Part shown: in pieces, positions 16,559-41,775 of the stretch | How the letters are laid out: each line of letters starts with the position of its first letter | Position numbering within the stretch: the stretch's first letter is position 1 | Virus record (IMG/VR): IMGVR_UViG_3300042296_000700 | Coordinates: 1 to 64,000 of that record | Strand: one strand, 5' to 3' | DNA length: 64,000 bases | From: a virus | Notes under the pieces: model-generated | Databases searched by the model: none | What the model saw: the letters and a program-made list of their open reading frames with translations, nothing else | Told to the model about the DNA's origin: nothing | Made by a program: the position numbers and the translations under genes

Positions 16559-16634
16559 ACAGTTTCTGTATTCATTCATGGTGTAATCTTTACCTCTCAC
16601 ACATCATTCTTTATGAACAGAAATGGGGGGCGTC

Positions 16635-20380: not shown

Positions 20381-20781
20381 TATTTTTTGAACTCTTCCCA
20401 AGTTTTGTCTCCAACACCAAAGTACTCTCTGGCGTGACCTGACTGAATAATATCAGTGTTTAGACATGCGGTCGTCGGGTCATCAATTTTGTCTGAAGAA
20501 AAGATGCGGGCTAAGACTCGCCCGTATTTATCATTTTTGTCTGGGATGGTATTCACAAAAACCCATTTATGGCTAGTGAGCCAGTCCTGAGTAAAACTTT
20601 TGGCTTTCAGACCCAACTCTTTTTCTTTGAGGTCTTTAGTGCGTGATTCAGGAGTATTGACACCGTATAGGCGGACACGAATCTTGTGGTGCACATCAAA
20701 CCCAAGGTCAACCATCAGTTCAATAGTGTCCCCATCAATCACCTTGAGAAGGGTTGCTCCATACCAAAATCGTTCAGCCAT
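20380..20781 (-). CDS. Staphylococcal-nuclease-like (SNase/TNase) protein
   Basis: 133 residues with the SNase OB-fold motifs: LKVIDGDTIELMVDLGF (calcium-binding Asp), VRLYGVNTPES with catalytic Arg and Glu, and KNDKYGRVLARIF with the second Arg. Active thermonuclease-like enzymes cut DNA and RNA. No signal peptide is seen, so it acts inside the cell or is packaged. It lies after the capsid terminator. Confidence 0.88.
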   Translation of the reverse strand: MAERFWYGATLLKVIDGDTIELMVDLGFDVHHKIRVRLYGVNTPESRTKDLKEKELGLKAKSFTQDWLTSHKWVFVNTIPDKNDKYGRVLARIFSSDKIDDPTTACLNTDIIQSGHAREYFGVGDKTWEEFKK

Positions 20782-20879: not shown

Positions 20880-22181
20880 TCAGGCAGGAGCGCTGTTGAA
20901 GGTGACTTCAACGAATGCTTCAGGGCGCTTGACTGCGAGAGCCAGACGCTGTTCTGCGAGCACAACGATTGCGTTGCGGACGAAGAAGTCTGCGTGCTGT
21001 TCGCTGATGCGGATGCTTGCCTGCTCACGGTCGTACAACTGTGCTCCCGTACCGAATGCGCCGATGAGACCCTTGCCTTCGGTCATTGCTGGGGTGTCCA
21101 CGACTGGGATGCGCCACAAGCGTGGCTCTCCGCCGAGGGCAACCGAAACGGCTACGAGGTACTGACCATTGTCGTCCTTTGACAATTCAATGTCTTCCCA
21201 ATCATTCGGGTGAAGAACAACGCCAGTTGGCTCGTAGTAAGCGAGGAACGACAAGGTTGCGGCACGACGAATCGCGTCAGCCTTGGTGTCACCTGCTGCT
21301 CCAGACGACCAAGAGTAATCCTGAACGCCAGTGGTGTTGAGGATTCCGAGGAGGTTTTCGCCAACTCCGTCACCGTTAAGGATTTGGGCATCTTCCTGAA
21401 GGCGCAAGCCGTAAAGAAGTTCGTTGTCAATGATGCTGCGCAATTGCGGCTCATCGGCGAGAACGTTACGGTGTGCTGCTTCCCAGTGAGCCAAAGTGCG
21501 AACAGGAGCCTGCTCACCAACGAATTGGAAAGACGACTGCGGCTTGGCAGCAAAGGCGTTACCACTACGCTCGGCAACTGCGCCTGCGTTGTTGGTGAAA
21601 CCAGTCATACGGAAGTATTCAATGACCGAAGCAGTCGTGGTACGGCTTGGGAACAAGTCGCGAACACGCTTGGTACGCATTGGAGGAATGACGATGGCAT
21701 CGCGCTGGATTGAACCAAACGAACCAGGGGTTCCCGTTGGCAATGCGCTGTACATGTCCTTGGTGCTCCAGAGACCCGTGACATCTGCACGGTTAACTTG
21801 GAAAGGAGCAGGCATGTTTGCGCCATTCTTGCCGCCGCCAAGAGCCTTGAATTCTGTTGAATCCAAGAACGCCTGTCCGAGGCTCTTTGCCGAAGCAGGT
21901 GCTTGACTCCACTGACCTTGAGCGGCAGCAGCCTCTGCTACTGAACCACCCTGTGGCTGTGAGCCCCATGCTTCAACATCGCGCATACTTTCAAGACCCT
22001 CAATGAGGCTCTTGATTTCGCGGATATCTCGCATATTGCTGTCAAATGCTGACTTCTGCTCGGATGAAACGATTACGGTGCCTTCTTCAATTTTGAATGA
22101 GTCGGCGATTTCTTTGTTGTTTGCCATCTTGGTGCGAAGCGCACCTTGAAGTTCAGACAATCGGTTTGCGTCAAAAGACAT
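20880..22181 (-). CDS. Major capsid protein (HK97 fold)
   Basis: 433 residues. The first about 115 are a helical, charged delta-domain-like region that a prohead protease would remove. The rest has HK97-fold features: RVRDLFPSRTTTASVIEYFRMTGF, an Ala/Gln-rich EQAPVRTLAHWEAAHRNVLAD segment, and RISEQHADFFVRNAIVVLAEQRLALAVKRPEAFVEVTF at the end. AGGAGTAAAA precedes the ATG. A following terminator and a 146-bp upstream gap suggest separate strong expression. Confidence 0.93.
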   Translation of the reverse strand: MSFDANRLSELQGALRTKMANNKEIADSFKIEEGTVIVSSEQKSAFDSNMRDIREIKSLIEGLESMRDVEAWGSQPQGGSVAEAAAAQGQWSQAPASAKSLGQAFLDSTEFKALGGGKNGANMPAPFQVNRADVTGLWSTKDMYSALPTGTPGSFGSIQRDAIVIPPMRTKRVRDLFPSRTTTASVIEYFRMTGFTNNAGAVAERSGNAFAAKPQSSFQFVGEQAPVRTLAHWEAAHRNVLADEPQLRSIIDNELLYGLRLQEDAQILNGDGVGENLLGILNTTGVQDYSWSSGAAGDTKADAIRRAATLSFLAYYEPTGVVLHPNDWEDIELSKDDNGQYLVAVSVALGGEPRLWRIPVVDTPAMTEGKGLIGAFGTGAQLYDREQASIRISEQHADFFVRNAIVVLAEQRLALAVKRPEAFVEVTFNSAPA

Positions 22182-23553: not shown

Positions 23554-23871
23554 TCAAACCTCAGGGTAGAGGATTTTGACTTTACGTGGAATTGAACTCT
23601 TGCCGTCTTTTTCTGTCAAATCGCCCATATAGAAACCGTTATTGGAGAACTTGACAAAAACCTTCTCTAGTTCTTTTTGGTTTTTCTTTTGGCTGAAATA
23701 CCAGACAGTTGAGTGAATTAGTTCGTCATCATCTGTTTCCTCATCAAGCGCATTCGCTATGAGAAGGACTTTACGACGCACCTCTTCAGGGAGTTTCATA
23801 AACTCCTCTTTGATGTGGGCAATGTTTTGAGGTGTTAAACCAATTTTTTTAGAAATTTTATTCTTCGTCAC
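23554..23871 (-). CDS. Hypothetical protein
   Basis: 105 residues with a GTG start inside the end of the giant gene upstream (14-base overlap). A helical N-terminus (IGLTPQNIAHIKEEFMKLP) and a C-terminus of strands. No recognised motif. It sits between two modular head-operon genes. Confidence 0.5.
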   Translation of the reverse strand: MTKNKISKKIGLTPQNIAHIKEEFMKLPEEVRRKVLLIANALDEETDDDELIHSTVWYFSQKKNQKELEKVFVKFSNNGFYMGDLTEKDGKSSIPRKVKILYPEV

Positions 23872-26800
23872 GTGGGTCCGCCTTAATCAAGTTCTTGTCA
23901 AGATAGAAAGTTCCGCTTGCTAGTCCCATGTTGGTTGCGAACCAGTTGCGCAGTTCTGTATCGCGGGCTCGCTTTGCTTCGCGTTCGTCGTTGCCGTAGG
24001 GGTTTGTTAGTGCATAAATAAAATCCATATGCCTGACGGAGTTTGGATTGTCTTTGTGTTTATCTATCAAATATTCAATGATATTAGCATCTTCTTCGTT
24101 TTTGATGATTGAAGTGTCGCCACGCCGAAAAGCGTTGAGTTGTGTATTCAAATTACTGACATGCGTGTTTGGGATAGGGGCTTCAAATCCAATGCGACCC
24201 CAAACATAAGGTCCATCGTCAGCAGTGCCTACAGTAATTTTTTCAAATCCAGCAGCCTTAGCATACATGAAAGCGTGCTGGTTGTAAACAGTTTGAATTC
24301 CATTGTTCTTGTGGTCGTTGCCACGAATAAACATTGTGCCGTTTCTAACCACACCTGCGTTGAGGTCTAAGTATCTACTACTGTCTCCCATGTTTGTCCA
24401 AGTGCCATTTGCGTTTTTTACCTCAAAATTAACGCTCACAGTGATTTGATTACCACTCAGACTGGCAGTTGCAACAGACCTGTATGTTTTACCGTTTGAG
24501 CCTTGAATTTCAGGGTGGGAGTACATTGCCTTAGCCCACGCTTCTAGTTGATTTCTTGCCGCTGATGCTTCTGGTCCACGTCCTTGTGCGTCGCGTAAAA
24601 GTTCTTGGCGTTTTTGAAGTGTCATTTCTTTCCATGGTGCGTTGCCTGCGCCGTATTGCCTATCTAGATGAAGAGCAAGTGTTCTTTGTCGTCCTTCAAT
24701 TGCGTCCTTCACACGCTGTTCTGCTTGACGTGCCAATTCAGGGTTTAGTGGTTCTGGTGCTGGCGCCGCAAGTGCTGCATCAATTTCCGCTTTCCGTTCT
24801 TTATATCTGTCGCGATGTGCAATTGCCACAATGAGGTCACGTTGCGCTACAAGGAAATTATCGTTTACTCCTTGTCCTTCGCGAGCGTCATAATTACGCT
24901 TTTTGGAAGCAACAACCTCATCTAGTTCGGCAAGACGCCGCTCATATGCTGGCAATATGCCGTCCCTATCGCGCATCCGCATGAGGGCGTCTCCGCCACC
25001 ATTGAAAGCACCGTTGAAGTCGGCATCAGCCCTGCCAACGCCGTCGTTCACAGCATTGTTTGCGCGAGATACGCGCTCGTTGACATTAGGCGCACCCTGT
25101 GCTTCAAAGAAAGCGCGCCATTGTGCAGGGGTGCGCCCTCTGACGTCATCGTCTCCACCAATACGGGTTGCTTGTTGTGCTGCCGCAGAAGGTTCTCTTG
25201 GAGCAGATGGCGTCCGACTTGGTTCTGGAGCATTTGGTGCGTCGTTGCCTTCAAGTTCTGCAGCACGACGCTTGAAAGCATTTCGTGTATCCATAACACG
25301 TTGAACTTGACCATTTTTGTCAATTACGTTTCTTGCTGCGTCTTCTTTGTCTTCATCTCCAGCATTACCAAAGGCGTCTGCCGCTTCACGAAGTTCTCTC
25401 CGTGCATCATCAAGCGCATTCTCCTGAACTTGGACGTTCGCACGAAGTTCAACAAGGTCACCACGCCTCCACGCAGCCATATTCTGAGGAAGTTGAACAT
25501 CGCGGTTTTGGATGATTCCTTCTTGAACTCGCCTTGCATAATCATCATCCATATTGTTGCCAAGCATGCGACGAAGTTGGGCTTTATCAAGACCGTCATC
25601 TGGAATATCAAATCCCATACGAAGGTCGGCTGGCACGCTACGAGGGTTACGCGCTGCTTCAACCTGACGCCTAGCCTGCTCTACAGTATTTTCAGCACGA
25701 GCAGGCTGTCCGTTGTTACGGTCATAAACCTCTTGCCATGCGTCCCTATAATCCTTGAGACCCCTTCTGACTTGACCAATACTAATTCTTTCACCGTCGT
25801 CGCGCTCAAAGAAATCCCTGTCAGCAATTTGTCCACGATTAATCGCATCCTCTAGACGGTCCCACCTCGCTTTAGAAATCGTAACTTTCTGGCGCGCTTC
25901 GTCTGCCTTGCTTCTTTTTCTAGCAGCACTGTCAGGGAAGTTGCGGTCGTCATTCAAAATCATTATTGGGTCATTGGGCAAAATGTCACGAAGTACGTAT
26001 TCCTTAAAATTGTCGTCATTTAAGACTTGGTTTAAATCACCTGCTCGTACACCACCCCCTGACGTGAATAGGCGTCCCCTGTTAGTTGCGTTATCGCTTT
26101 GACCAGCACGAGCAGGCTTGCGTGGGTCAGGAAGTGACCTCAACTGACGTTCTCTGCGAACGTCCGCAAGTATCATTCCAACTCTTGTTCTGTCTAAATC
26201 TTCACGCTGTATGTTGTCACGCTGGTTTTGAACTAGTTTTTCAAGTTCCAACAGGTCAGCGTCTTGAACTTGGTCAAGATTATTAAAGACATTCCTTTGT
26301 TCTTCATTAAACTCCCCAGCAAAGAAGTTGTCTTCAGGATTTTCTTGCATTTGGCGATTTATGCGCTTTGCGTCGCGTTCAACTCCGCCTAAACGACCAG
26401 CATTGTCGTCTCTTGTAATCGTGCGAGCAGGTGTTGTTTCGCGAGCGGCAGGTGCTGCGGATGGTTTGCGAGCCGCCGCACCTTCATTTTGACGAGAAGC
26501 AGTATCCCTATTATTGGCTGGTCGGCGACGACCCGCATTAGCAGGACGACGTGGAGCAGCAGGGCGAGGTCTTGCTGCAGGAGCAGGTGCAGCATCAACA
26601 TCAGTTCGTGCAGCACCAGGATTGTCAATTTCTCGTTGCATGCGACGTTCTTCAGATGCGCGCAGGTTTCGGCGTGGGCGTTTGGCGGCTGCAGGACGAG
26701 GGCGTGGGTTAGCATTATTTTGGCGACGACCGCGAGTTGCTTTACGTCGTTTCAACTCTGCCATTACTCGTTTGTAGTCGTCGCTATCCCTGCCATCGGT

Positions 26801-27499
26801 AGCGTTTTCTAACTCTTCACGCATTTCCTCTAAAACTTCAGTCGGTTCGGCTGCGAGAAGGTTGACGTCTTCACGTTCTTCACGAGCAGGACGAGCAGGG
26901 GTATCTGCGGCGTTGTCGGGAGTCAAGTCTCGTCCTCTGTCACGACCGCGAGGTGCTTGGGGAGCATCAGCGCGGCGAGCACGCCCTTCACGATTTGGCT
27001 TATCTGGGTCAACTACTTCGGCAAGACGACCCGCTGCTCGCTCAAGACGACCAGTAGGACGAGGCACTTCTGCGCCAACACGATTACGTTGTCCGCCTTG
27101 GCGACCTGTTAGGTCAAGAGCATCACCAACACGACCTGCGGCACGCTCAATTGCGCCTGGTGCTCCAGCCAAACGACCAGCCATACGGTCGTTACGTTTG
27201 CGTAGTTTTCGTTCGCGTCGGCGGTCACCAACATTTTCAAGACGTTCACCTAAATCAGAGATTTCATTAGCGAGACGGCGGGCTACACCCCAACCGCAGT
27301 TCCTGCCGAAACGGTCAGTAATTTGACCACCATAACGAGTTCCTACTGGACAACGAAAACCACCGCGGCGACTAGTCCCTGGTACTGCAAGGGATGGGTC
27401 AAATATTGCTCGTGCACGCTTAACTTCGTACAGCATGGAAGAGCGATTGCTTTCCGTTGTAAAGCGAAGAGCCTTATATGAAACTAGGTTTTTGTCCAT
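23858..27499 (-). CDS. Giant modular head-operon protein (RCPxG family) with GNAT-like end
   Basis: 1213 residues from MDKNLVSYKALRF (GGGAAG upstream). Residues 40-90 hold the shared signature GGFRCPVGTRYGGQITD (then C68) and a basic LERLENVGDRRRER-type helix. Several hundred residues of Arg/Pro/Ala-rich linker follow, then charged helical stretches. The last 200 residues match the GNAT-like region of the protein at 12526 (GFEKITVGTADDGPYVWGR), but the acetyl-CoA motif is not conserved (HKNNGI). Likely a virion component, possibly delivered to the host. No known name. Confidence 0.7.
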   Translation of the reverse strand: MDKNLVSYKALRFTTESNRSSMLYEVKRARAIFDPSLAVPGTSRRGGFRCPVGTRYGGQITDRFGRNCGWGVARRLANEISDLGERLENVGDRRRERKLRKRNDRMAGRLAGAPGAIERAAGRVGDALDLTGRQGGQRNRVGAEVPRPTGRLERAAGRLAEVVDPDKPNREGRARRADAPQAPRGRDRGRDLTPDNAADTPARPAREEREDVNLLAAEPTEVLEEMREELENATDGRDSDDYKRVMAELKRRKATRGRRQNNANPRPRPAAAKRPRRNLRASEERRMQREIDNPGAARTDVDAAPAPAARPRPAAPRRPANAGRRRPANNRDTASRQNEGAAARKPSAAPAARETTPARTITRDDNAGRLGGVERDAKRINRQMQENPEDNFFAGEFNEEQRNVFNNLDQVQDADLLELEKLVQNQRDNIQREDLDRTRVGMILADVRRERQLRSLPDPRKPARAGQSDNATNRGRLFTSGGGVRAGDLNQVLNDDNFKEYVLRDILPNDPIMILNDDRNFPDSAARKRSKADEARQKVTISKARWDRLEDAINRGQIADRDFFERDDGERISIGQVRRGLKDYRDAWQEVYDRNNGQPARAENTVEQARRQVEAARNPRSVPADLRMGFDIPDDGLDKAQLRRMLGNNMDDDYARRVQEGIIQNRDVQLPQNMAAWRRGDLVELRANVQVQENALDDARRELREAADAFGNAGDEDKEDAARNVIDKNGQVQRVMDTRNAFKRRAAELEGNDAPNAPEPSRTPSAPREPSAAAQQATRIGGDDDVRGRTPAQWRAFFEAQGAPNVNERVSRANNAVNDGVGRADADFNGAFNGGGDALMRMRDRDGILPAYERRLAELDEVVASKKRNYDAREGQGVNDNFLVAQRDLIVAIAHRDRYKERKAEIDAALAAPAPEPLNPELARQAEQRVKDAIEGRQRTLALHLDRQYGAGNAPWKEMTLQKRQELLRDAQGRGPEASAARNQLEAWAKAMYSHPEIQGSNGKTYRSVATASLSGNQITVSVNFEVKNANGTWTNMGDSSRYLDLNAGVVRNGTMFIRGNDHKNNGIQTVYNQHAFMYAKAAGFEKITVGTADDGPYVWGRIGFEAPIPNTHVSNLNTQLNAFRRGDTSIIKNEEDANIIEYLIDKHKDNPNSVRHMDFIYALTNPYGNDEREAKRARDTELRNWFATNMGLASGTFYLDKNLIKADPRDEE

Positions 27500-27506
27500 T
27501 AGATGT

Positions 27507-27755
27507 TCACTTCCCAAACAATTCGCGTACTTTTGCCTCATAATCGCCCGAATAGTCACCCTCGGTGATTTCGCTATAAGTGCTGCTGGTAATAATTTCA
27601 CCGATTTTAGGTTTCTTATCACCTAAAGAATACCATTCGTCAAACGATTCATCTTGCTTGCCGTCGCTATCAAACAGTTTTATGCCGTTGTCTGTCTCAA
27701 TGTAAACATTCTTATATGTTTTGTCTTCAGTTGAAGTTACTACTACGTATTTCAT
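27507..27755 (-). CDS. Hypothetical small acidic protein
   Basis: 82 residues, beta-strand-rich start (MKYVVVTSTEDKTYKNVYIE), with GGAAAAG before the ATG. Placed between two giant paralogous genes and could be a chaperone or partner for one of them, but this is only position-based. Confidence 0.55.
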   Translation of the reverse strand: MKYVVVTSTEDKTYKNVYIETDNGIKLFDSDGKQDESFDEWYSLGDKKPKIGEIITSSTYSEITEGDYSGDYEAKVRELFGK

Positions 27756-27767
27756 TTACTTTTCCAA

Positions 27768-30473
27768 TCAACGGGCTGTTATGAGGTTGTATATTTGTTC
27801 TGGTGTCAAGTTTAAGAGGTATTCCTGCCGAGCGGCAAGCCCATCAACATGGTCATTATGCCCTGGTGAAACGGATAACCCACTAGGGTCGCGCCTTGCT
27901 TCAACTGCATCTCTACCAAAGTCTGCGATATCTCGCTCGCGTTGCGCAGCACGAAGGGCATCTTGTGCTAATCCAATTTCTCGGATTACTTCGGAACGTT
28001 GGTCGTTGCGAAGTTCGGCACGCATCGGGTTGCGATTACCGCCTTGTCCATCCGCGAGCCATGTCCTGAATCCTGATTCGTTGGCATAATCACCTGATTG
28101 AAAATACCCTTGTCGCCCTCTGAACCCAAGTCCGTTATCAATTGGGACGAGATGCTTTTTGCCATTTTGCGTAACAAGAAAGTAGTTTTCGTTATGCCTG
28201 TCTGTGTTCATTATTAGGTAGTCAAGAAATGTTGCGCGAACCTTGTCCTTTACCACATTAGGGACGTCGTTACGACCACGTGGTTTGATAGGACTAGCAA
28301 CGTAGTTGCCGACATGTTCAAACATAATAGGACGAGCCTTTGCTGGAGGTTGACCGTTGAAAGGAGGCCCTGCAAATCTAAACTCACCGACAGGAAAGCC
28401 TAACCGAGCAGCAACATTATTGCCCACAATTTCGTTGAGGTCTTCATTTTTGCCAAACATAAGTTTCCCTGTCCTGCCCCTATGGTCGCCAGAGAATTTG
28501 ACAAAGAATTTTTTACCCGTTGCAGTATCTGTGAACAAATCTGCTGACCCGTTGATTCCGCCTCCTAGTGTGGATTTGGTGAAACGCTTTCCTTGACCCG
28601 AGTTGGCTTTCATTGCATTAAACAGGAAATCATCAGGTACGTCTCTAATGTCTCCGCCGTTGGCGAGGTGTAGGTCTGCGTCCGCTTGTACGTTGATATT
28701 TTTGTTGCCTTTAGGGATATGGCGAATGTCTGGGACACCGTTTGCAATATCACCTATTTTGTTGTCGTTTTGCTTTACCCTAATGTTTGGGGCTTTGCGA
28801 ACTCTGGAACCAGTGCCAGCATTACGTGGTGCTCGTGGTGCTCGCGGAGGACGAGCGGGAGCAGGAGCGGGTGCGGCTTGTTCTCCTAAAATTCTTTCTA
28901 GTTGAGCGATTCTCGCATCGCGATTAGCACCAGGAACATTCTGGTCACGGTCTTCTCGTAGTTGATTCAGTTCCTCACGAAGTCCTGCCTCTTCGGACGG
29001 GGTGAACTGTCGTGCTGCAGGTCTACGTGGACGAGGGGCTGCTGGTTGAACAGCATCTGGCTGGTCATTAGGGCGGGGACGACGATTCGCAGGACGGCGA
29101 CCATTTTGTGCGGCTGCCCCAGTACGACGTCCACGTCCTCCATTCGGGCGAGGACGGGCTGGTGCATTGCCAGCGTCAGGATTGCGGTCACGCCATGCTT
29201 GTTCTACGGCAGGACCGTGGAAACGTTCCCATTCTGAGCGACGCAAGAATCCAGCATTTCCACCTCCGTCACGAATACGACGAACCTCTGCTTGATGCTC
29301 ATTGTATTTACGTGTCTTGTATGTGTCTAGTGATTCCCGTGCACTTGGTGCTCCTGCAGGTACGGGAACTCCGCTCGTATTGTCTACGGGAACATTTCGC
29401 GGTCTTGCAGGGCGAGGATTTGCAGGACGACGCGGTGCAGCAGGACGAGGACGGTTGGCTGGCGCTACTGGGGCGTCGCCTGTTCGTGGAGCGCCAGGAT
29501 TGTCAATTTCGCGTTCCATGCGTCGTTCTTCTGAATCGCGAAGGTTGGGGCGACGACGAGGATTTCGTTGCGGAGCAGCAGGACGAGGATTGCGGGCTGG
29601 TGCTCTCCTGTTGCGGGTGGGCTTGTCGGGGTCAACAACGTCAGCAATTCGCCCTGCGGCACGCTCAAGACGACCAGGTTTCACGGTGTCTACCTGACCT
29701 GTGCGGTTGCGCTGTCCTCCTTGACGACCTCCCATACCAGTGAGGTCAAGCGCATCGCCAACTGCGCGTGCGCCTCGTTCAATTGCTCCGCCTCCAGCAA
29801 GGCGACGAGCCATTCTTTCGTTTCGTCGTGTTACGCGTCGTTCGCGTCGGCGGTCACCAACATTTTCAAGGCGTTCACCGAGGTCAGAGATTTCGTTAGC
29901 CAAACGGCGGGCAACTCCCCAACCGCAGTTCCTACCGAAACGGTCAGTGATTTGTCCGCCATAACGTGTCCCTACTGGACAACGAAATCCGCCACGGCGT
30001 TCTGTGCCTGGTACTGCTAGAGACGCGTCCCAAACTGAACGAGTGCGCTTAACTTCGTATGTGAAAGATGATTTGTTTTGGTCTGCAATAAAAGCGACAG
30101 CCTTGTACTGCACAGCATTTTTCCACGCTTCAACAGGAAATTCGGAGAGTTGAATATCCATAAGGGAGATAACTGGCAGAAGTTCTGCTGAAGCATCTTT
30201 CTTTTCAATTTCTTTAGACGGTTTTGTGAGTGAACGGTTCTTTAATTCTTCTACTACAGAGTCACTAACAGTTGTTTCAAGCGACATTGAATTATCAAGA
30301 GTTACGGTTAGTTCCTCTTTGCTAATCTTTTTCCCAGCGTATTCATCAGCCATCCACTTTGACCACGATTTTGCGGCTGCTACAACAGGATGAAACTGTG
30401 CACCGTCGGGAAGAATTTCAACGAGCGCGTACGGCTTGTTCTCTCTGTCTTTAATGAGAAATCGTGCAGCCAT
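27768..30473 (-). CDS. Giant modular head-operon protein (RCPxG family) with kinase-fold end
   Basis: 901 residues. Residues 160-185 repeat the signature GGFRCPVGTRYGGQITD...C, almost identical to the 23858 protein, followed by a similar Arg/Pro/Ala linker. Residues about 592-800 read as a HipA/PI4K-like kinase fold: Gly-rich loop LGGGINGSAD, FFVKF with Lys659, catalytic MNTDRHNENY (Asp758, Asn763) and metal-binding VPIDNGLGF (Asp779). All key residues are present, so it may be an active kinase. The location implies a virion protein. Target unknown. Confidence 0.75.
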   Translation of the reverse strand: MAARFLIKDRENKPYALVEILPDGAQFHPVVAAAKSWSKWMADEYAGKKISKEELTVTLDNSMSLETTVSDSVVEELKNRSLTKPSKEIEKKDASAELLPVISLMDIQLSEFPVEAWKNAVQYKAVAFIADQNKSSFTYEVKRTRSVWDASLAVPGTERRGGFRCPVGTRYGGQITDRFGRNCGWGVARRLANEISDLGERLENVGDRRRERRVTRRNERMARRLAGGGAIERGARAVGDALDLTGMGGRQGGQRNRTGQVDTVKPGRLERAAGRIADVVDPDKPTRNRRAPARNPRPAAPQRNPRRRPNLRDSEERRMEREIDNPGAPRTGDAPVAPANRPRPAAPRRPANPRPARPRNVPVDNTSGVPVPAGAPSARESLDTYKTRKYNEHQAEVRRIRDGGGNAGFLRRSEWERFHGPAVEQAWRDRNPDAGNAPARPRPNGGRGRRTGAAAQNGRRPANRRPRPNDQPDAVQPAAPRPRRPAARQFTPSEEAGLREELNQLREDRDQNVPGANRDARIAQLERILGEQAAPAPAPARPPRAPRAPRNAGTGSRVRKAPNIRVKQNDNKIGDIANGVPDIRHIPKGNKNINVQADADLHLANGGDIRDVPDDFLFNAMKANSGQGKRFTKSTLGGGINGSADLFTDTATGKKFFVKFSGDHRGRTGKLMFGKNEDLNEIVGNNVAARLGFPVGEFRFAGPPFNGQPPAKARPIMFEHVGNYVASPIKPRGRNDVPNVVKDKVRATFLDYLIMNTDRHNENYFLVTQNGKKHLVPIDNGLGFRGRQGYFQSGDYANESGFRTWLADGQGGNRNPMRAELRNDQRSEVIREIGLAQDALRAAQRERDIADFGRDAVEARRDPSGLSVSPGHNDHVDGLAARQEYLLNLTPEQIYNLITAR

Positions 30474-30475
30474 AA

Positions 30476-32677
30476 CTAAATCCCTACTAGTTTGTTGAAT
30501 TGGGTGTTTTGTTTTTTCAACGTATCTCTACGTGTCGTGAATAGTCTCTTGACCATTTCAAGGTGACGCTTTTCTGCATCAGAAAGCATTCCATCGGCAG
30601 TAAGCCTGCTCACATATTCATCCCAGTTGAACGCATCAATCTTCTTAAATAAGTCATCAACAAGACTTGCAAGCATTTTACGCTCTGATTCACTTAAAGA
30701 ACCGAAACTATCTTTATAAACACGAGCACCACGCTCATCAAGATAATCAGGAATGTCAATTTTGAACCGTCGTGCAATTTCGGCAGCGGTCAATCCAGCC
30801 ATATTTGACAACTCGTTACTACTTGGAATAACGGTAATCCGAGAACCATCGCGGACTGCAGAAAGTGTTGCAGGAGAGCGGTCACGACGGTCGGTCAAAT
30901 AATCGGCGATGGCTAAGCGAAGAATGTCTGCTTTAGGAATCTTGTCAAACTCCAGTGAAGTATCAAACCGTGTTTCGCCTTGACTGATGTCATTCATGAT
31001 GAGGTCACGCTTTGAGGCACTGCCACCAATTTTGGTATTAGGCATTTTGAGACCTACATGTGAAGCAATATCTGCGTACACCTTTTCCGAGACACTGCCG
31101 TACGTGACGGTTTCTGGAACTTGGAGAACAGATTTTCCGCTCCCTGCTTGATGCTTAATAATGCCAGTACCAAGCGGAGTTGACTTATAAGATTTGCTGT
31201 TTTTTAATGCGTCAGAAATGAATTCAGAAGGAATGTCAAACGGGTCTCCACCATTATCAAGCATTTTGATTGATTCAGCGAGCGTTGTCGGTGAGTCGTT
31301 CTTTGGTGTTGTGTCTTCACGGATAGTTTCCGTAGGAGCAACTGGCTTAATCTTGCCTTTACCGTTGGACATGAAAGTTTCGTAGACCCAACGGCGTACT
31401 TCAACTTTGCCCCCACGACCATTATTAACTGATATGAGGTCGTTGGGCTTGTCAATATTTGGGAACTTCTCGGTGTATTTGAACGCTCCGCCAGATGAGT
31501 TAGCAAAATCACGGATGTTGTTACCAACATCAAATTGGTCACTTTCACCAGCAACTCTGTTTAGTTGGCGTCCAAATTTACGGCGTTCGCCAACAGTTAG
31601 GTCACGAGCACGCTCAATTGTGAGGGTTGAACCGTTTGGCAGAACATACGTTACTTGCCGTACTGCTGCACCAGATAGGAGGGCAAGGTCGTCGCCAACA
31701 ATGTCTTTCGGTACTTGGATGGGGCGCACCATGACGCTTCCGTCCATGTCGGAGTTTCCACTAAACTTACGCAGCACAGAAGATGGAACGATTGGTTTCA
31801 AGACTACGGCGTCGCGCCGAATGAGTCGTCCCTCTGTTGTTGGTGCGCCAGTAACCGTGCGGATTGCGGCTTGTACTGCTTTTAAGCGTTCTGCTGGCTT
31901 ATCTGCGCCAGTTCTAGGGATTTGTGCCATGCGAAGAATTGATGCAGTGTTGGAAGTTGCTCCACCACTAACTACTTCGGAAAGGCTGTCTGCCTCTGTT
32001 CGTGGAAGTTTGGGTTTGCTGTTTAACCGCCGTGCTGCGCCGAGCGCAACACCGAGGGCAGAAGGAATATCAAACAACTGTGCACCACATGTTGAATAGC
32101 GAGAATCAGTAAATCGTCCACCAAACTGAAATCCTGCAGGACAACGAAATCCTCGTGTCGGTTTTGGTACAACACGGCGAATCTTGCCTAATCCTGGCAC
32201 GTTTCCACCAGGAACTAGAGCGGAGTAAACGCGGGAGCGAATCGGGCTGCGAATTCCTGATAGGTCACCAGGTAGGGCGATTGTGCCCGCTGCCTGAATG
32301 TTTTGACCAAGAGCGCCACTGGAACCAATCACACCAACTTTGACGCTTACCGATGAACCCATGCGGTTGCGGGTTGGCGTGGAGAATGCTGCTGCCTTAA
32401 AGTTGACGACGTTGCGTTCAGTCCCACTTAAATGTTGGTGCATTGCGAGGGACATTGATTTGACGTACGGTTCAAGCGGGCGCTTCTGTGCTGTAAAGTA
32501 TTCGCCGTTTTCAATACGTGTACGTGTTACCTGAGACTTTGTACTACTTGGGTTAAATGGAATCTTGATATAACCATCGCCGTCAACAACCGTACGAACA
32601 AAAGAACTGTCTTTACGCAGCAAAGGGCGCTGATGTCGCAAAAAACTATTTATTGAACTTTTGCTATCAACGCTCAT
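30476..32677 (-). CDS. Modular head-operon protein (RCPxG family) with pseudokinase-like end
   Basis: 733 residues. The signature is GFRCPAGFQFGGRFTD...C at 177-197. The segment 467-630 aligns by eye with the kinase-fold end of the 27768 protein: NGGDPFDIPSEFISDALK against NGGDIRDVPDDFLFNAMK, and ADYLTDRRDRSPATL against LDYLIMNTDRHNENYF. The Lys of VKF, the DRHNEN His/Asn and the DNG Asp are replaced, so catalysis is unlikely. It may be a structural or regulatory copy. Confidence 0.65.
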   Translation of the reverse strand: MSVDSKSSINSFLRHQRPLLRKDSSFVRTVVDGDGYIKIPFNPSSTKSQVTRTRIENGEYFTAQKRPLEPYVKSMSLAMHQHLSGTERNVVNFKAAAFSTPTRNRMGSSVSVKVGVIGSSGALGQNIQAAGTIALPGDLSGIRSPIRSRVYSALVPGGNVPGLGKIRRVVPKPTRGFRCPAGFQFGGRFTDSRYSTCGAQLFDIPSALGVALGAARRLNSKPKLPRTEADSLSEVVSGGATSNTASILRMAQIPRTGADKPAERLKAVQAAIRTVTGAPTTEGRLIRRDAVVLKPIVPSSVLRKFSGNSDMDGSVMVRPIQVPKDIVGDDLALLSGAAVRQVTYVLPNGSTLTIERARDLTVGERRKFGRQLNRVAGESDQFDVGNNIRDFANSSGGAFKYTEKFPNIDKPNDLISVNNGRGGKVEVRRWVYETFMSNGKGKIKPVAPTETIREDTTPKNDSPTTLAESIKMLDNGGDPFDIPSEFISDALKNSKSYKSTPLGTGIIKHQAGSGKSVLQVPETVTYGSVSEKVYADIASHVGLKMPNTKIGGSASKRDLIMNDISQGETRFDTSLEFDKIPKADILRLAIADYLTDRRDRSPATLSAVRDGSRITVIPSSNELSNMAGLTAAEIARRFKIDIPDYLDERGARVYKDSFGSLSESERKMLASLVDDLFKKIDAFNWDEYVSRLTADGMLSDAEKRHLEMVKRLFTTRRDTLKKQNTQFNKLVGI

Positions 32678-33129: not shown

Positions 33130-35499
33130 TTACGAAACACTTTCCTCGTCTGGCGTTGACGGAGCGGACGCCCATCGGATTTGTTGCTGAACGTCTTCAA
33201 GCAACTGTTTACGCACGCGTGCCCCCCAAATGTCGGTAATGCGGTCTCCAGCCTTGCCACCGTCATATTTTGTTGGGTCTCCTAAATCAAGACCATCATA
33301 AGAACCAAAAATGACTTTAGCATTCGGAGCCTTTTCGGCGACCAATGAAGTAATTCGCTCCATTTCCATGGCAGATATCAAACCATTGAGTTTTAACTCA
33401 TCTCTCATTGCAGAAGCCTGATTCTTGGTATTATCTGGTTGAGCGTTTGTTACCTTCCATCCAGAAATTTTTGCACGTGCAACTTCTATCTCGCCCATTG
33501 TGAAACCTGCGGCAAGCAACTGTTCAGTAGAAAGATGCTGGTCTTCAATTTTTTGAATCAATTCTGCGCCATCAACGCCGTTGGGGTTAAACTGGTTTTT
33601 GTAAGTTGGGAACAATTTCGTTGCATCAAGTTTGATTTCCTTAATGTCTTGAGCGGTGAATCCTCCAAGTATTTGTGATTCCGTAAATTGACCATTTTGT
33701 TCTAGTCCACTTTTATTCCAGTTAACAAAATCTTGCGTAACGTGGGTTCGTAATAGGCGATTGATGTTGTCGTTCATGTCGCTGCTGTCCAAGTGACCAG
33801 CGATTGATTCAATTAGTTCCTCGTCTGATGCGCCAACTGCCGCAGTGCCTCTTGCTTGATTAAGGATGCTGTCCTTATGGTGAATTGTTGTCCTATCGGC
33901 AACCTCTGGGTGAAGTACAAATTCCATGTCTCCATAGCCGATTCCATTTCCAGCAAATGCACCTACAAACTCGTCAGTAACCCCTGCTGCACCCCTACCA
34001 GGAATGGTCAAGTAGTGGTCTGTGGTGAATAGTTCCATTCCTTCTTTTGCGTTGTTCTCATCTGTGATTCGTTTTAACTCGTCGTCCCAGAAAGTAAAGC
34101 GACTAAAACCGTATACAGGGCGAACACCAGAACCGTGTACTGCTCCGACACTTGCTTCATATTGTCCACGGCTGCCAAGTAGTGATGACATAGCATCACC
34201 AACCTTGGCATCAGTTTTGACTTCCATCGGAAGGTAGCCATCTGTTAAATATGCTTCTAAATGTTGCCCTTTAGCCCACACTGAGGCTTCAGGTTTGCGG
34301 GCTTTTGCAATCGTTAATGCAGTCTGTTCTATCGCTGCAATTACTTCATCATCAGTGTGCGTGAGGATAAATTCATGCGTTTTGGGGTCTATAACTTTGT
34401 CAAATGGAAGTCCATTTATGTCGGTCTGGATGCCTGATTCAATCATGCTGCGAAGGTCGGAAACCTTTTCTGCCATCATTGTCCTGCGTTGCGTCTGTCG
34501 TTCTTTCAGAGTCAAAATGGCTTTACCTGCATAGAAGCCAGAATCATTTATTGCTTTAATGTCCTCATCCGTAGGCTTGCCCCACTTCGGAGCCTTGGCG
34601 AGAACCTCGGCATTGAAGTCTTTGATTTGTGCAGATGTTGCGTGCTCAGCACTTGGAAGTCCGAGTAAGTCTGAAGAATCGGTAAGTTTCCCAACAGCAC
34701 GGTCAACAGCAGTGGGCTCGTTAGCGTTAATGCCTCTAAAACGTTCTTTTGTTGACTTAATAACATCGTTGAATGAACCTTGCATCTTTTCTGAAAGTTC
34801 GCCACCCTTAATACGGAGACGTTTCATTCTTTCGGCAAATGCCTCCTGATATTCGTCAACCTGTTCTTTGGTTTTGTTCCACTTTTCTTTAGCGTTTGCT
34901 AACGCCACCTTGACAGGCACCATGCCACCAGTAACAAATATGCTCGTCAACATTTCAATACCTTCGTTGGTATCAGAGTCACCACTGGCACCAGTGAAGT
35001 CATTTATCATGCTGCCAATGTCGCCGAAATTGCCAAAAAAAGTGCCCCAGTAAGCCGTAGCCCAAGCAAGTTTTTTCACTATCGCTTTTTGTTCAGGAGT
35101 TAAGCGTCGCTTGTCTTTTTCAAGCGTGTCATCAATATCAATACCAAGCGCCCTGAACTCTGCAATAAGTTTAGGTGACGTCTTGCTAGGCACGAGACTT
35201 GATGCTGCTTGGGCGGCAGCATTCGCCACTGTTTCTGCACTTGGAACCATACAGTTAGACATCTGCATGTCGGTAAACTGGTTAGCATTCGGCGTTCCTG
35301 GCGGACACCGCATTTTGCCATTCTCGTCAATAATGATTCCAGCACGACGAGCAGCATGCTGTCCCACTGAAGGAAGTTTATCGTTGTCGCGAACGGTAGG
35401 TCCAAGGAAACCTTTCACCATTACACTTGTGCGGACAACAGAAACTGCTGACGTGAAACCGTCAATACGTTCGTTCGCTATGTCAGGGAGTGACCTCAT
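33130..35499 (-). CDS. Modular head-operon protein with divergent RCPxG motif
   Basis: About 789 residues (ATG 35499; GTG 35505 with GGGAGG five bases ahead is equally possible). It has a shorter form of the shared signature, KMRCPPGTPNANQFTD then C, at residues 67-87. A helical Ala-rich zone and a hydrophobic part (FVTGGMVPVKVAL) follow. The latter half holds VGAVHGSGVRPVYGFSRF and YGDMEFVLHPEVADRTT, which look like an enzyme core but which I cannot name with confidence; an ADP-ribosyltransferase-like toxin domain is one possibility. Confidence 0.6.
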   Translation of the reverse strand: MRSLPDIANERIDGFTSAVSVVRTSVMVKGFLGPTVRDNDKLPSVGQHAARRAGIIIDENGKMRCPPGTPNANQFTDMQMSNCMVPSAETVANAAAQAASSLVPSKTSPKLIAEFRALGIDIDDTLEKDKRRLTPEQKAIVKKLAWATAYWGTFFGNFGDIGSMINDFTGASGDSDTNEGIEMLTSIFVTGGMVPVKVALANAKEKWNKTKEQVDEYQEAFAERMKRLRIKGGELSEKMQGSFNDVIKSTKERFRGINANEPTAVDRAVGKLTDSSDLLGLPSAEHATSAQIKDFNAEVLAKAPKWGKPTDEDIKAINDSGFYAGKAILTLKERQTQRRTMMAEKVSDLRSMIESGIQTDINGLPFDKVIDPKTHEFILTHTDDEVIAAIEQTALTIAKARKPEASVWAKGQHLEAYLTDGYLPMEVKTDAKVGDAMSSLLGSRGQYEASVGAVHGSGVRPVYGFSRFTFWDDELKRITDENNAKEGMELFTTDHYLTIPGRGAAGVTDEFVGAFAGNGIGYGDMEFVLHPEVADRTTIHHKDSILNQARGTAAVGASDEELIESIAGHLDSSDMNDNINRLLRTHVTQDFVNWNKSGLEQNGQFTESQILGGFTAQDIKEIKLDATKLFPTYKNQFNPNGVDGAELIQKIEDQHLSTEQLLAAGFTMGEIEVARAKISGWKVTNAQPDNTKNQASAMRDELKLNGLISAMEMERITSLVAEKAPNAKVIFGSYDGLDLGDPTKYDGGKAGDRITDIWGARVRKQLLEDVQQQIRWASAPSTPDEESVS

Positions 35500-35522
35500 A
35501 GTCACGGGCACCTCCCGGTGAA

Positions 35523-37125: not shown

Positions 37126-39156
37126 TTACCCGTTTATTGACTTATATCCATTAACTGCCGCATTTATTGCTTCAGTTGCTGACGTGGTTAGACCGCTCAA
37201 ATGAATGCCTTCATCATCAATATAACTATGGATGTTGTGGTATTCAAGCACTGGGTCAATTAATGATTTAACTTCAAACATTTCGTCAATTGCTAACGAG
37301 ATTGTTGCTGAGTCGTATTTGACTTCAACTTCTACCCCGCCAGCGGAACTGATGACTTCTTGGAGCATTACGAGCATGTCTTTGAGTTTCTTCAAGTTAC
37401 GGTTATTGAGTACGCGACCAGCCTTGGTCTCCATCTCATAACTCAATGACTTTTCAAGAGCAGTCATTGCTTGAATCATGCCGATTGCTGGCTTGTCAGT
37501 TCCGCACGACCCTGCGCCTCCGCAGCCGCATCCGCAATCACCATGGTCGTCATCGTCATCATTGCGACGAATGTGGACTACCAAGGTGCGACCTTTGCTT
37601 TCGTCATCAGATTCACCGTAGTGTTCCCAGTTTGACTTCTCTCCAATGAATTTAACGAATTCTGGCTGAGCATCAAGGAACTCCTTGAGATACATCATTG
37701 CCTTTTCCTCAACTTCTTGAGGAGGAACGCCGCTCAAGTCATCTTCGCCTTCGCCCAGTCCCATGGTTTTGCCATCGGGAATCTTGTCAAGACGTGCACT
37801 CCATTCGCTGTCATTCCAAATTGAGCCATTAGAAACGCCGCGAATCTTGTTACGGCAGTTCTTCATGCCGGGGTGATGGCATCCCTCGTTCGGCCAAAGT
37901 CCAGTTGTTTCATGGTGAAGCCAAGCACAAATGTTGTTCAATGGATATAGTTCTGGGTGGTCTGCAAGGATTACTTTGCAACGCCTAAATCCGCCTGGTT
38001 TCTTCATGATTGGACGCCAATACTTAAGCAATGCCTCAAGGTTTCCGCGACGAGGACCGTATCCACGCATAACATCGCCAGTAACCCGTTCTTGGGGGAG
38101 GGCGTCTGGAGGAATTGGTGCCTTGACTTCTTCTTCAACCTCTCCAAGTTCACTAGATTCTTTGCCACTCATGCAGCCACACTTGCAGGCTTCGTACTTT
38201 GGCTTTACGCCTTCTGGAACCATCGGGTTCTTGTCCATATCGTAGTTTGACTCGTATGGATTCTGACCTTCATTGTGGTTTGCTGCTGGATTCTTGCCCG
38301 CTTCGTTTTCGTTTGCTGGGAGGTAGACCATCTGTGGTCGGACGGCAACTGGTGTGCCAAACATGAACTCGTCACCGTCAAAATGGTAGGTGACGCGCAT
38401 TGTCGTCGGTTCTTCGTTGCCTTTTTTGTGGTCAAAAATGACCATGTTCTCTTCTGCTGAACGGACTCGTACGGCACCACCGAAGCGTGTTGCGAGGGCG
38501 CGACTAAGGTTCGCCATGCGACCCATTGCAGGGTTCATTGCTGGCACACCACCGTCTTCGCCACGAGGACCAGAGTAGTCAGCCTCGTTATTGTCTGCTT
38601 CGTAGATTTTTACACTTGGCTGTGTTTGTGCGTGCTTGATAGAGATTGTTCCAGTTAACTGGTTTGCTCCGTGGAGAACAGGGCTGACTTCGTAGAGTTC
38701 TACCTCTTTGAGAATGTTCGCTTGGCGCGATGAGTCATATTCAGCATCAAGGGTTTTGTATCCGATAGACCATTCTTGTTCTGTGCCAAAGAATGAGATG
38801 TCAAGGAATGCTTGTTTGCCGCGCTCAGATTTCAAGTTGAATTGGACGCGAGCGTAAAGTCCACCAATTCCAGCACGCTTCATTTTCATTGGCAGGCGCG
38901 GGTCGTTTGGGTTTACTTCGTAAATTTCAATAACTTTGCCGATTGGCTCGTTCCAATTATGTCCCCAAACAACTCGTGGTTTACGGCGTTTGAGACTTTC
39001 AGTAAAGCAGCCTGGTGCACAAATGTCACCAACACCGTCTTTGTTGCCAAGACCAGCAACGAAACATTCAACTATGCCCTGCGCCTCGTCTACATTGATT
39101 TGACCATTGTCAATCGCTTTGTATTCTGTTGCAGTGATTTCTTGCAGTTGCGGCAT
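37126..39156 (-). CDS. HK97-type prohead protease with long C-terminal extension
   Basis: 676 residues, about three times the usual protease length. Residues 1-180 are the protease: IVECFVAGLGNKDGVGDICAPGCF, catalytic His in RVVWGHNWNEPIGKV and Ser in EQEWSIGYKTLDAE. It then has a YGPRRGNLEALLKYWRPIMK...GFRRCKVILADHPELY module with several Cys and His (HHETTGLWPNEGCHHPGMKNC), a CGCGCGGAGSCG stretch and a helical end. It should cleave capsid delta domains during head maturation. The extension could act as scaffold. GGAG precedes the ATG. Confidence 0.88.
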   Translation of the reverse strand: MPQLQEITATEYKAIDNGQINVDEAQGIVECFVAGLGNKDGVGDICAPGCFTESLKRRKPRVVWGHNWNEPIGKVIEIYEVNPNDPRLPMKMKRAGIGGLYARVQFNLKSERGKQAFLDISFFGTEQEWSIGYKTLDAEYDSSRQANILKEVELYEVSPVLHGANQLTGTISIKHAQTQPSVKIYEADNNEADYSGPRGEDGGVPAMNPAMGRMANLSRALATRFGGAVRVRSAEENMVIFDHKKGNEEPTTMRVTYHFDGDEFMFGTPVAVRPQMVYLPANENEAGKNPAANHNEGQNPYESNYDMDKNPMVPEGVKPKYEACKCGCMSGKESSELGEVEEEVKAPIPPDALPQERVTGDVMRGYGPRRGNLEALLKYWRPIMKKPGGFRRCKVILADHPELYPLNNICAWLHHETTGLWPNEGCHHPGMKNCRNKIRGVSNGSIWNDSEWSARLDKIPDGKTMGLGEGEDDLSGVPPQEVEEKAMMYLKEFLDAQPEFVKFIGEKSNWEHYGESDDESKGRTLVVHIRRNDDDDDHGDCGCGCGGAGSCGTDKPAIGMIQAMTALEKSLSYEMETKAGRVLNNRNLKKLKDMLVMLQEVISSAGGVEVEVKYDSATISLAIDEMFEVKSLIDPVLEYHNIHSYIDDEGIHLSGLTTSATEAINAAVNGYKSING

Positions 39157-39256: not shown

Positions 39257-39574
39257 TTAAGCGACTTTCAGTAAAGTCTTAATCTTTTGGACTAGAGCGT
39301 TCTTCGCAGTTGCGCCGATGACCGACCCAACTGGTTCCCCATCCTTGAACATAATCATGTTTGGGATGCTCATAATGTTATTGGAAGAAGCAAGTTTAGG
39401 GAAATCGTCAATATTTACTTTGAAAAACTTGACTGTTGGTAACTCTTCAGAAACACCAATCAGAATTGGTTCCATCATTTTGCATGGAGCGCACCATTCT
39501 GCCCAAAAGTCAACAAACGCATAACCCGAAGAGATTGATTCCTTAAAATTGGACTCATTCAAATCTTTTATCAT
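39257..39574 (-). CDS. Thioredoxin
   Basis: 105 residues from MIKDLNESNF, coupled to the portal gene by TGATG. VDFWAEWCAPCKMMEPIL contains the active-site WCAPC (27-31), and SIPNMIMFKDGEPVGSVIG carries the cis-Pro loop. It would reduce disulfides; plausible partners are the class II ribonucleotide reductase or Cys-rich head proteins. Its position between portal and protease is unusual. Confidence 0.93.
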   Translation of the reverse strand: MIKDLNESNFKESISSGYAFVDFWAEWCAPCKMMEPILIGVSEELPTVKFFKVNIDDFPKLASSNNIMSIPNMIMFKDGEPVGSVIGATAKNALVQKIKTLLKVA

Positions 39575-41775
39575 CAGTTGAACCTTAGACGGCAACGACA
39601 GTTAATTGTGAGACTTGGTGGGGCAAGGGGGTCACCAGGGAAACGCAGGACTGAGTCATTCAACACAAATCCGTCCCCAAGAGGCACGCTTTTGCCATGA
39701 AGCAGACGGTGCTCGGTGCGAACGGCAGAATCCTTACGCGTTACCCATGTTTTCTCTGTAGCGCCAAGACGCTTACCAGTGAAGTAAATACCAGCATTAT
39801 GTGATGTCTGTGCTTCAAGTTCAGCAATGACTCGCTTCCTCTTGCCAAGCAAATTCACGAATATTGCCGTGAGTGCTGCACGCAATAATCCAATTCTGTC
39901 TTCGTCATCACCAAGCGCCATAGCAATCAAAATTGCTGCTGCAACTTCTTCCTTGGTCGTGCTGTTTGATTTCTTCATCCGTTCAATTTGCTCATCAACG
40001 GTTTTTTCAACATCTGCTTCTTCAACATCTGCAGGCATGTTTGCTTGTTGAGCGCCAGAAGTTACGCCTTCCATGGCGATTGCTTTCAGCACAGGTCGGA
40101 TGTCGTCTTCAAGTTGCTTGTTCCAAGTTGCTTCATCAAAGATTGTGTCAACATCTAATTTCTTGGTTGAAACTGCTTTGCGAGCCTTTGAGCCAGATGC
40201 TTTTTCCAATACGACACGTTGCTGACGCTCATAGACACGCTCTAGGGCGCGTTCAAGAATGTCAGTCCATCGGTCAGTATCTTGTTCTGCCTTTGTATCA
40301 AAATCGTCATACATGTATGAAATGTCTTGTGACTTAACTTCAATGCCACCCATGTTTGCCGAAAGTTGTCCTTCTGGCGGTGGAGGGGTTGCTGTTTCAG
40401 GACTGGTAGGTGCCGCTGCTTCTGGTGCAGGAAGAGCCTCTGGAGCGGGTGGTGATGTTTGAGGAAGACCTTGCTGAGGCATGCCCGCTTGACCAGTGGG
40501 GTCTTGCGCAACTCCAACCATATCAACTGGTTGTTGTTCGTCTGCCTTGAACGGCTTCTCCGTATTTGCAATCGGTGTGAGGTTAGGGTTAGACAGCAGA
40601 CTATCCGCAAGTTCGGAATCAACCTTTTTCTTACCTGTTCCATCACGATATTCGTTAACACTGATGAGACCTTGCTGGTACTCGTCCATGAGGTAACGTG
40701 CGCGTTCCTGTTTTGCAATAATCAGAATTGGGACACTACTGGTATCAAAATCAATGTAATATTTTTCGTCTAGTTCATCAAATGCGCGAGCAAGTGGTTC
40801 TAGGTGAGGGAGCATTGTCTCCATCCAGAACACACGAATTTCTTCCGATGCGTTAGAGAACGTTCGTCCTGCAGCGTTACCAATAACGGATTCAGGAACA
40901 CCAAAGGAAGCAAGAATTTCTTCTTTCTGAATTTGGCGCATTTGCGTATATGCAGCATCGCGTGGAGAAGCGGACGTGTCCACGAAGTCAACGCCATCAT
41001 CTGACGAAATAACAGTAGTTGCGCCAGTGCGACTCAAGTTTCCGCGGAACCTGTTCCGAAGTTCCTCTTTGTCGTCGTCTTCCATTTCTCCACGAACAAC
41101 AAGTAAGCCACCGGGGCGACCGTCGTTTAGGAGGTAGTTGCGATTATAAAGTTTTGAGAGATTTTCAAGTTCAATTGCGATTCCAGCAGACTCCATTGGA
41201 GTGATGGAAAGATATGGGTCTAGCGGGTGTGGGCGACGAATCCAAACAACATCTTCGGGCTTGAGAATAACTTTTGTGCCGTTTCGCATATCCACTTCGT
41301 ATCCAGAGATAAAAGTTTTCGGATGTGGAATTGGTGCTGTGTGCTGGGGCGGAAGAAGGTGGAGGGCAATTATCTCTCCGTTACGTCCTCTTACTTTTTC
41401 AACGAAAACGCCTCTGCTTGACATGAGGAGTTGTGCTGAGAGGCGATAGCGGAAAATAAAAGAGTTTTCGCCTTGGTTTGTTTTGGTATTAAAGATGTCA
41501 AGCAAAGAATTCTTTGACCTGACGATTTCCCCGTGCGGTGAATTGTCTTTGCGTAGAACCATTGGGAGGCGTGCTTGGTTGCCTGCGATGGCGTCAATGC
41601 ATCGGAAGACCCAAGTAACTTTTTGTGCACCTTCGCGATATGCGCGCTCAATGTCCCAATTGTCCTTGTATGGCTTATTTACCATTCCAGGGTTGAATGC
41701 AACTGGGGCACCTGCATTAAGAATGGACTTAGCGTCGCCTTGTTGAAGGTTTTTATTGCTCGTATTCCAACTCAT
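39574..41775 (-). CDS. Portal protein fused to MuF-like minor head domain
   Basis: 733 residues. Residues 1-420 match HK97-type portals: VTWVFRCIDAIAGNQARLPM, DVVWIRRPHPLDPYLSITPMESA, YLLNDGRPGGLLVV and ILASFGVPESVIGNA. A Pro/Gln/Ala-rich linker follows. The end, KTWVTRKDSAVRTEHRLLHGK ... LRFPGDPLAPPSLTINCRC, is the Mu gpF-like (MuF) head morphogenesis domain. The portal forms the DNA gate at one vertex; MuF proteins associate with it. Usually these are two genes; here they are one frame. Confidence 0.9.
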   Translation of the reverse strand: MSWNTSNKNLQQGDAKSILNAGAPVAFNPGMVNKPYKDNWDIERAYREGAQKVTWVFRCIDAIAGNQARLPMVLRKDNSPHGEIVRSKNSLLDIFNTKTNQGENSFIFRYRLSAQLLMSSRGVFVEKVRGRNGEIIALHLLPPQHTAPIPHPKTFISGYEVDMRNGTKVILKPEDVVWIRRPHPLDPYLSITPMESAGIAIELENLSKLYNRNYLLNDGRPGGLLVVRGEMEDDDKEELRNRFRGNLSRTGATTVISSDDGVDFVDTSASPRDAAYTQMRQIQKEEILASFGVPESVIGNAAGRTFSNASEEIRVFWMETMLPHLEPLARAFDELDEKYYIDFDTSSVPILIIAKQERARYLMDEYQQGLISVNEYRDGTGKKKVDSELADSLLSNPNLTPIANTEKPFKADEQQPVDMVGVAQDPTGQAGMPQQGLPQTSPPAPEALPAPEAAAPTSPETATPPPPEGQLSANMGGIEVKSQDISYMYDDFDTKAEQDTDRWTDILERALERVYERQQRVVLEKASGSKARKAVSTKKLDVDTIFDEATWNKQLEDDIRPVLKAIAMEGVTSGAQQANMPADVEEADVEKTVDEQIERMKKSNSTTKEEVAAAILIAMALGDDEDRIGLLRAALTAIFVNLLGKRKRVIAELEAQTSHNAGIYFTGKRLGATEKTWVTRKDSAVRTEHRLLHGKSVPLGDGFVLNDSVLRFPGDPLAPPSLTINCRCRLRFN

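Follow-up and report, generated by a model that had tools for sequence, protein, structure and literature searches.

A kinase-fold domain exchanged as a cassette at the end of a phage head-block protein, and the circumstantial case for its delivery into the host

To our knowledge few phage kinases have been characterised, and we know of no demonstration so far that a kinase is carried inside a phage head. A gene in the IMG/VR virus record IMGVR_UViG_3300042296_000700 raises the question of whether such an enzyme could travel with phage DNA. Within the window analysed here (64,000 nucleotides, bases 1-64000 of the 107,127-base record), an open reading frame (ORF) of 901 amino acids on the minus strand (27768..30473) lies among genes for the phage head and ends in a putative kinase domain. 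We find that this domain is swapped between related phages behind a nearly constant N-terminus, and consider it probable that the kinase is a catalytically competent, exchangeable effector end of a phage-head protein, one that would be packaged, injected and directed at host proteins.

The protein, whose architecture is common to its relatives, consists of an N-terminal part (residues ~1-150), a conserved tag module (151-240), a low-complexity basic linker and the kinase domain (592-901; 27771..28700), which is followed by the stop codon at 27768-27770. A first-pass annotation had placed a kinase of the HipA/phosphatidylinositol-kinase-like branch at 28073-28700, at the end of a virion-region protein. 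That interval is correct in falling inside the domain, but it covers residues 592-800 only, and the domain reaches the C-terminus. The motifs listed at that time are all present in the 901-residue frame: LGGGINGSAD at 636-645, VKF with K659, MNTDRHNENY with D758 and N763, and VPIDNG with D779. The catalytic stretch (28137..28499) includes the codons for K659 (28497-28499), E681 (28431-28433), D758 (28200-28202), N763 (28185-28187) and D779 (28137-28139).

Structure prediction of residues 592-901 with AlphaFold2, from a 52-row alignment, gave a high-confidence kinase fold and no unrelated one (predicted local distance difference test score, pLDDT, 90.6; predicted template modelling score, pTM, 0.91). 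The elements of the model follow the order of a kinase, from a Gly-rich loop through K659 in beta3, E681 in helix C and the DRHNEN catalytic loop to D779 after beta8, and an extensive helical C-lobe comes after D779; in domain numbering, the G-loop lies at 46-52, K68 in beta3, E90 in helix 86-99, D167 and N172 after helix 150-162, and D188 after strand 181-186. When the model was compared with the PDB by Foldseek, PI4KII-alpha (E 6.7e-5), Legionella HipT, CotH and Helicobacter pylori CtkA were matched with probability 1.00. Because template modelling (TM) scores for these PDB matches were about 0.35-0.5, with 11-17% identity among the matches reported, the comparison makes the superfamily clear and not the substrate. 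Among viral structures the best matches were uncultured Caudovirales proteins, one of them named PI3/4-kinase, followed by a protein of Mycobacterium phage Onyinye annotated as an ADP-ribosyltransferase and then by a Gordonia phage Sixama protein.

Profile searches matched PI3_PI4_kinase in Pfam (E=9.1e-7, 29.5 bits against a curated cut-off of 27.1, residues 748-784 only) and phrog_3162 in PHROG, a family of unknown function (E=7.2e-8). A profile built from 52 relatives matched PI3K-alpha (2.3e-7), C. elegans H03A11.1 (4kqa, which we take to be a Fam20 kinase; 3e-6), PI4K and mTOR in the PDB; a single-sequence phmmer search of the domain against the PDB gave nothing significant, so that the family profile alone yielded these matches. 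With a bilobal kinase fold and conserved catalytic residues, the C-terminal 310 residues are, on the predicted structure, a kinase of the HipA/PI4K/CotH/CtkA branch, and the assignment made in the first pass is supported, well above chance, by profile, by structure prediction and by the census of relatives described below. Its statement that all residues for phosphotransfer are present also holds, both in the complete core of the model and across relatives, and the domain would be expected to transfer phosphate. We considered and rejected the HipA toxin of HipBA toxin-antitoxin systems: HipA_2 scored 18.2 bits against a cut-off of 27, and HipA_C was matched by one of 52 relatives at E<=0.01. 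No gene for a HipB-type antitoxin adjoins: the neighbours in the cluster are head-block proteins, and a Pfam scan of ten proteins gave no DNA-binding family.

Relatives were fetched from IMG/VR, where 419 candidate stretches encode a relative of the capsid protein, with three queries: the capsid protein and the full-length kinase protein, to which the tag module was added afterwards. All three found relatives, whereas a k-mer scan with the kinase domain alone found none among viruses, and phage-collection proteins gave no match to the whole kinase protein, the tag module, the neighbouring pseudokinase protein or a 793-residue protein of the same block. An iterated search of the relatives' ORFs with the kinase domain first returned 82 domains and, after extra loci were added, 114 non-redundant kinase-fold proteins, of which three added isolate records supplied a few; at several loci two or more stand in tandem. 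Redundancy was removed by sequence and not by contig, so that loci of different scans (L numbers below) can share one contig. The IMG/VR loci are fragments, and because ORFs truncated at their edges blur counts, we rely on a single figure: of the 49 capsid-anchored loci whose upstream DNA was long enough, 37 have some kinase-fold domain. As a separate observation, a HipA-like kinase adjoins a gene with a HIRAN domain in small Tectiliviricetes phages of Vibrio (L004 10953-11918, L005 11590-12576).

Across 62 domains, 51 from the gene position that we call the KIN slot and 11 from the p793 slot, the seven best-conserved positions are K659, E681, D758, R759, H760, N763 and D779: D758, R759, N763 and D779 never vary, while K659 and E681 are kept in 98% and H760 in 97%. 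These positions stand out in a family whose KIN-slot members have a median pairwise identity of ~26%, an alignment too diverse for pattern scans. The ratio of nonsynonymous to synonymous substitution rates was 0.09-0.47 in the four close pairs for which it could be computed, as under purifying selection, and from these sequence comparisons we read the kinase as an enzyme probably under selection to stay active.

The same domain is swapped like a cassette, while the N-terminus in front of it stays nearly constant. Between the window and locus L089 all other parts compared are 65-97% identical and the kinases 35%; the L089 kinase shares 72% identity with its counterpart in L094, a locus more distant in tag module and N-terminus. 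Kinases can be very different while the capsid proteins of the same phages are 90-97% identical. At the DNA level, loci L025 and L028 match at 93.7% identity as far as about residue 467 of the kinase gene and cannot then be aligned until the next gene, and L028 and L043 have the reverse pattern, with a kinase block of 94.7% and a flank of 75%; the breakpoints sit between module and kinase. Among 50 KIN-slot proteins, the identities of module and kinase are only weakly correlated (r=0.34), clustering at 50% divides the kinases into 29 groups, and in 35 of the 54 pairs with modules at least 95% identical the kinases are <45% identical. Two controls, a GNAT-like slot (r=0.79, 0 of 16 pairs) and the pseudokinase (r=0.87), are ordinary co-inherited parts that lack cassette behaviour. 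The KIN-slot effect could stem in part from pairing paralogues that stand in tandem, and the comparisons of syntenic DNA are important for that reason. Polymorphic effectors typically exchange the enzyme end and keep the front unchanged, and the kinase looks like such an effector and not like a structural part.

The gene lies in a head block whose order recurs in relatives, with all of its genes on the minus strand: on the upstream side the portal protein with its C-terminal MuF domain (39574..41775; Pfam PF04860 9.1e-51, PF04233 9.8e-8) and the S78 prohead protease (37126..39156; PF04586 1.8e-11), on the downstream side the major capsid protein (20880..22181; PF05065 9.9e-47). Four consecutive large proteins of the block have in common a tag, RCPxG...[FI]TD....C, which is also found throughout relatives: the 793-residue protein (33130..35511; RCPPGTPNANQFTDMQMSNC at about 35194-35328), the pseudokinase protein (RCPAGFQFGGRFTDSRYSTCG, 32072..32161), the kinase protein and a 1254-residue protein (23858..27622). 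In the last two the motif grows to the 90-residue module, SLAVPGTERRGGFRCPVGTRYGGQITDRFGRNCGWGVARRLAN... at 29754..30023 in the kinase gene and 27122-27394 in the downstream gene, and the two copies are 91% identical; an alignment of the module has 22 invariant columns in 27 rows. Between module and kinase runs a basic linker rich in Pro, Ala, Gly and Arg, and the 441 residues from the start of the module to the kinase have an isoelectric point (pI) of 11.7, with a median of 10.4 in 50 relatives. The slot of the 793-residue protein (p793) bears a kinase end at some loci, in three relatives in place of the end seen in the window, and elsewhere a different end. The tag would be a candidate signal for loading proteins into the head.

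Two bases before the ATG of the kinase gene ends the upstream gene (30476..32677, minus strand, 733 residues), whose C-terminal domain (30479-31285) is, in its modelled structure, a pseudokinase: it has the kinase fold (AlphaFold2 pLDDT 85.6; Foldseek matches to CtkA and HipA), it is paralogous to the kinase (jackhmmer E 1.8e-54 after iteration; hhalign probability 99.5) and its catalytic residues are lost. All 26 pseudokinase members have lost H760 and N763, D779 and K659 are nearly always gone, and the domain forms a clade of its own in relatives. Drift of the jackhmmer search was discounted as the source of this call, given that a separate model from the domain's own alignment still matches the CtkA/HipA folds. 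Nor is the pseudokinase supported as an obligate partner of the kinase, because each occurs without the other: L094, L097 and L101 have the kinase and no pseudokinase domain, and L067, L072, L082 and L086 have the pseudokinase with only a stub in the KIN slot. Those stubs are 198-248 residues long and comprise the N-terminal part only. Both this neighbour and the exchange of the kinase domain escaped the first-pass annotation.

Several other features of the window were noted. The C-terminal domain of the 1254-residue protein (23861-24652) differs from the kinase, is conserved and has a motif, GIQTIYNQHA...DDGxYVWxRxGF, reminiscent of acetyltransferases; the GNAT assignment comes from this motif only, and profile comparison gave no confirmation. 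Within the head block, a 112-residue protein with WCAPC, thioredoxin-like by eye, is encoded between the portal and protease genes (39257-39595, minus strand), and an acidic PepSY-domain protein lies at 35755-37110 (minus strand; Pfam 2.3e-8). Beside the capsid gene, a 133-residue protein (20380-20781, minus strand) appears by eye to be of staphylococcal-nuclease type. A strand switch at 41775/41900 separates the head genes on the minus strand from terminase and tail genes on the plus strand (baseplate J at 59403-60731), and a B12-dependent ribonucleotide reductase is encoded at 16623-18560 (plus strand; Pfam PF17975, PF02867, PF21995). The nearest isolates by capsid protein, at 47.6-50% identity among the top dozen records, infect Brevibacterium and Gordonia, and an actinobacterial host is therefore likely. 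Since the tag module was not found in a search of GTDB genomes, there is no direct link to a host.

It had been suggested earlier that a kinase delivered with the DNA could modify host proteins at the first moment of infection, and the head block, tag, basic linker and cassette exchange make that case stronger than it then was. It is a circumstantial case, in which packaging and injection are the best explanation, drawn from the location of the gene, the tag in common, the basic linkers and analogy. In the course of events that we propose, entry of the protein into the prohead would depend on its N-terminal part and tag module, the basic linker would lie along the packaged DNA, and at infection the protein would exit with the DNA and phosphorylate host proteins; lineages would retain the N-terminus and exchange the kinase by recombination, so that targets, or resistance to the kinases, would vary. 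More tentatively, and as a proposal that falls somewhat short of probable, the locus may form part of a dedicated cargo system, in which the tag directs a set of proteins to the head, the lineage reloads the system by recombination of enzyme cassettes, for the most part dozens of divergent kinds of kinase, that are injected to rewire host signalling, and the conserved pseudokinase is a fixed companion. Weighing against delivery are the 12 of 49 capsid-anchored loci that have no kinase-fold domain in the fetched stretch, so that the kinase is dispensable; the tag module, which has no homologue of known function among phage-collection proteins and GTDB genomes; and the argument of Benler et al. 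2021 (PMC8008677) that a HipA-family kinase in five Gratiaviridae phages has a late role and may confer immunity to superinfection.

Under that late role the kinase would act unpackaged in the producing cell, guarding it against superinfecting phages or altering its envelope, and arms-race-like exchange also fits conflict between phages; we nevertheless think it unlikely, if worth keeping in mind, for fusion to an N-terminal module and to the tag of head-block proteins would be needless in a free cytoplasmic enzyme. Somewhat less likely again is that the kinase targets phage proteins such as the capsid, a scaffold or the tag-bearing proteins during head assembly or maturation. Its gene is found with those for protease, portal and capsid, and the paralogous pseudokinase nearby could be a structural or regulatory partner, but the very different kinases beside capsids that are 90-97% identical are the reverse of the pattern expected for a conserved internal substrate, and some loci have no kinase. 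That PI 4-kinases are the nearest PDB folds by E-value, and PI3_PI4_kinase the best Pfam match, might point to a small molecule or lipid as substrate, as for phosphatidylinositol kinases, or to other nucleotide transfer such as AMPylation; the same fold group, however, includes the protein kinases HipA/HipT, CtkA, CotH and Fam20, TM-scores of about 0.3-0.5 are too low to transfer a substrate class, and we regard this reading as improbable. Far less credible is an inactive structural head protein with a kinase-derived fold: the gene at 30476-32677 next door encodes just such a protein, with its catalytic residues lost, but here K, D, N and D, among the best-conserved positions, are kept by 51 of 51 KIN-slot and 10 of 11 p793-slot domains.

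If the phage delivers the protein into its host as a weapon, swapped kinase ends behind a constant front would be expected; the delivery is one that we infer. If the kinase is indeed packaged and injected to act on host proteins, an uncultivated phage family carries a large and diverse library of kinases that evolution has chosen to act on bacteria at entry, and the tag becomes a portable candidate signal for head loading. The question is open to direct experiment in the cultured Microbacterium phage Pumpernickel, which bears the same kinase domain. Its gp82 (NC_073468; 2235 residues), encoded two genes after the portal, has the domain near its C-terminus with the full catalytic set; it is annotated as hypothetical and, unlike the window protein, lacks the tag module.

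Enzymes that are packaged and injected, or predicted to be, offer parallels. The polyvalent proteins described by Iyer et al. 2017 (PMC5512222) are large multidomain phage proteins encoded near late genes, as is the protein studied here; packaging and injection are predicted for them, and they include protein-modifying enzymes such as kinases and GNATs. Their kinases are of a serine/threonine/tyrosine type without the C-terminal subdomain, and HipA does not figure in that text, whereas the kinase of the window has a C-lobe in the model and belongs to the PI4K/HipA-like branch. T4 Alt, a head enzyme injected with the DNA (PMC9503650), modifies the host in the way proposed here; it and other ADP-ribosyltransferases differ in fold and chemistry, and packaging, demonstrated for Alt, is conjectural for the window kinase. 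Gordonia phages GMA6 and ChisanaKitsune, cultured relatives by capsid, have annotated ADP-ribosyltransferases in the portal-to-capsid interval, and packaging of such enzymes has been predicted (PMC9503650, PMC5512222). HipA/HipT, CtkA, CotH and PI4KII share the predicted fold and catalytic arrangement, but none is fused to phage head-block modules. The T7 gp0.7 protein kinase is likewise regarded as an enzyme of host takeover, yet it is expressed early and belongs to another kinase family (PMC8008677). Closest in gene position is the Gratiaviridae kinase of Benler et al., HipA-related and encoded, in tailed phages, between the genes for the portal and the major capsid protein; compared by description only, it differs in being a single kinase, in the AAA ATPase and glycosyltransferase upstream, and in the Bacteroidetes hosts. 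The same paper describes neither a tag common to several proteins nor a pseudokinase paralogue nor exchange of cassettes (PMC8008677), and no description of these turned up in a limited search of the open literature. A HipA-family kinase at this position was thus already on record, and the pseudokinase, the shared tag and the cassette exchange are new here.
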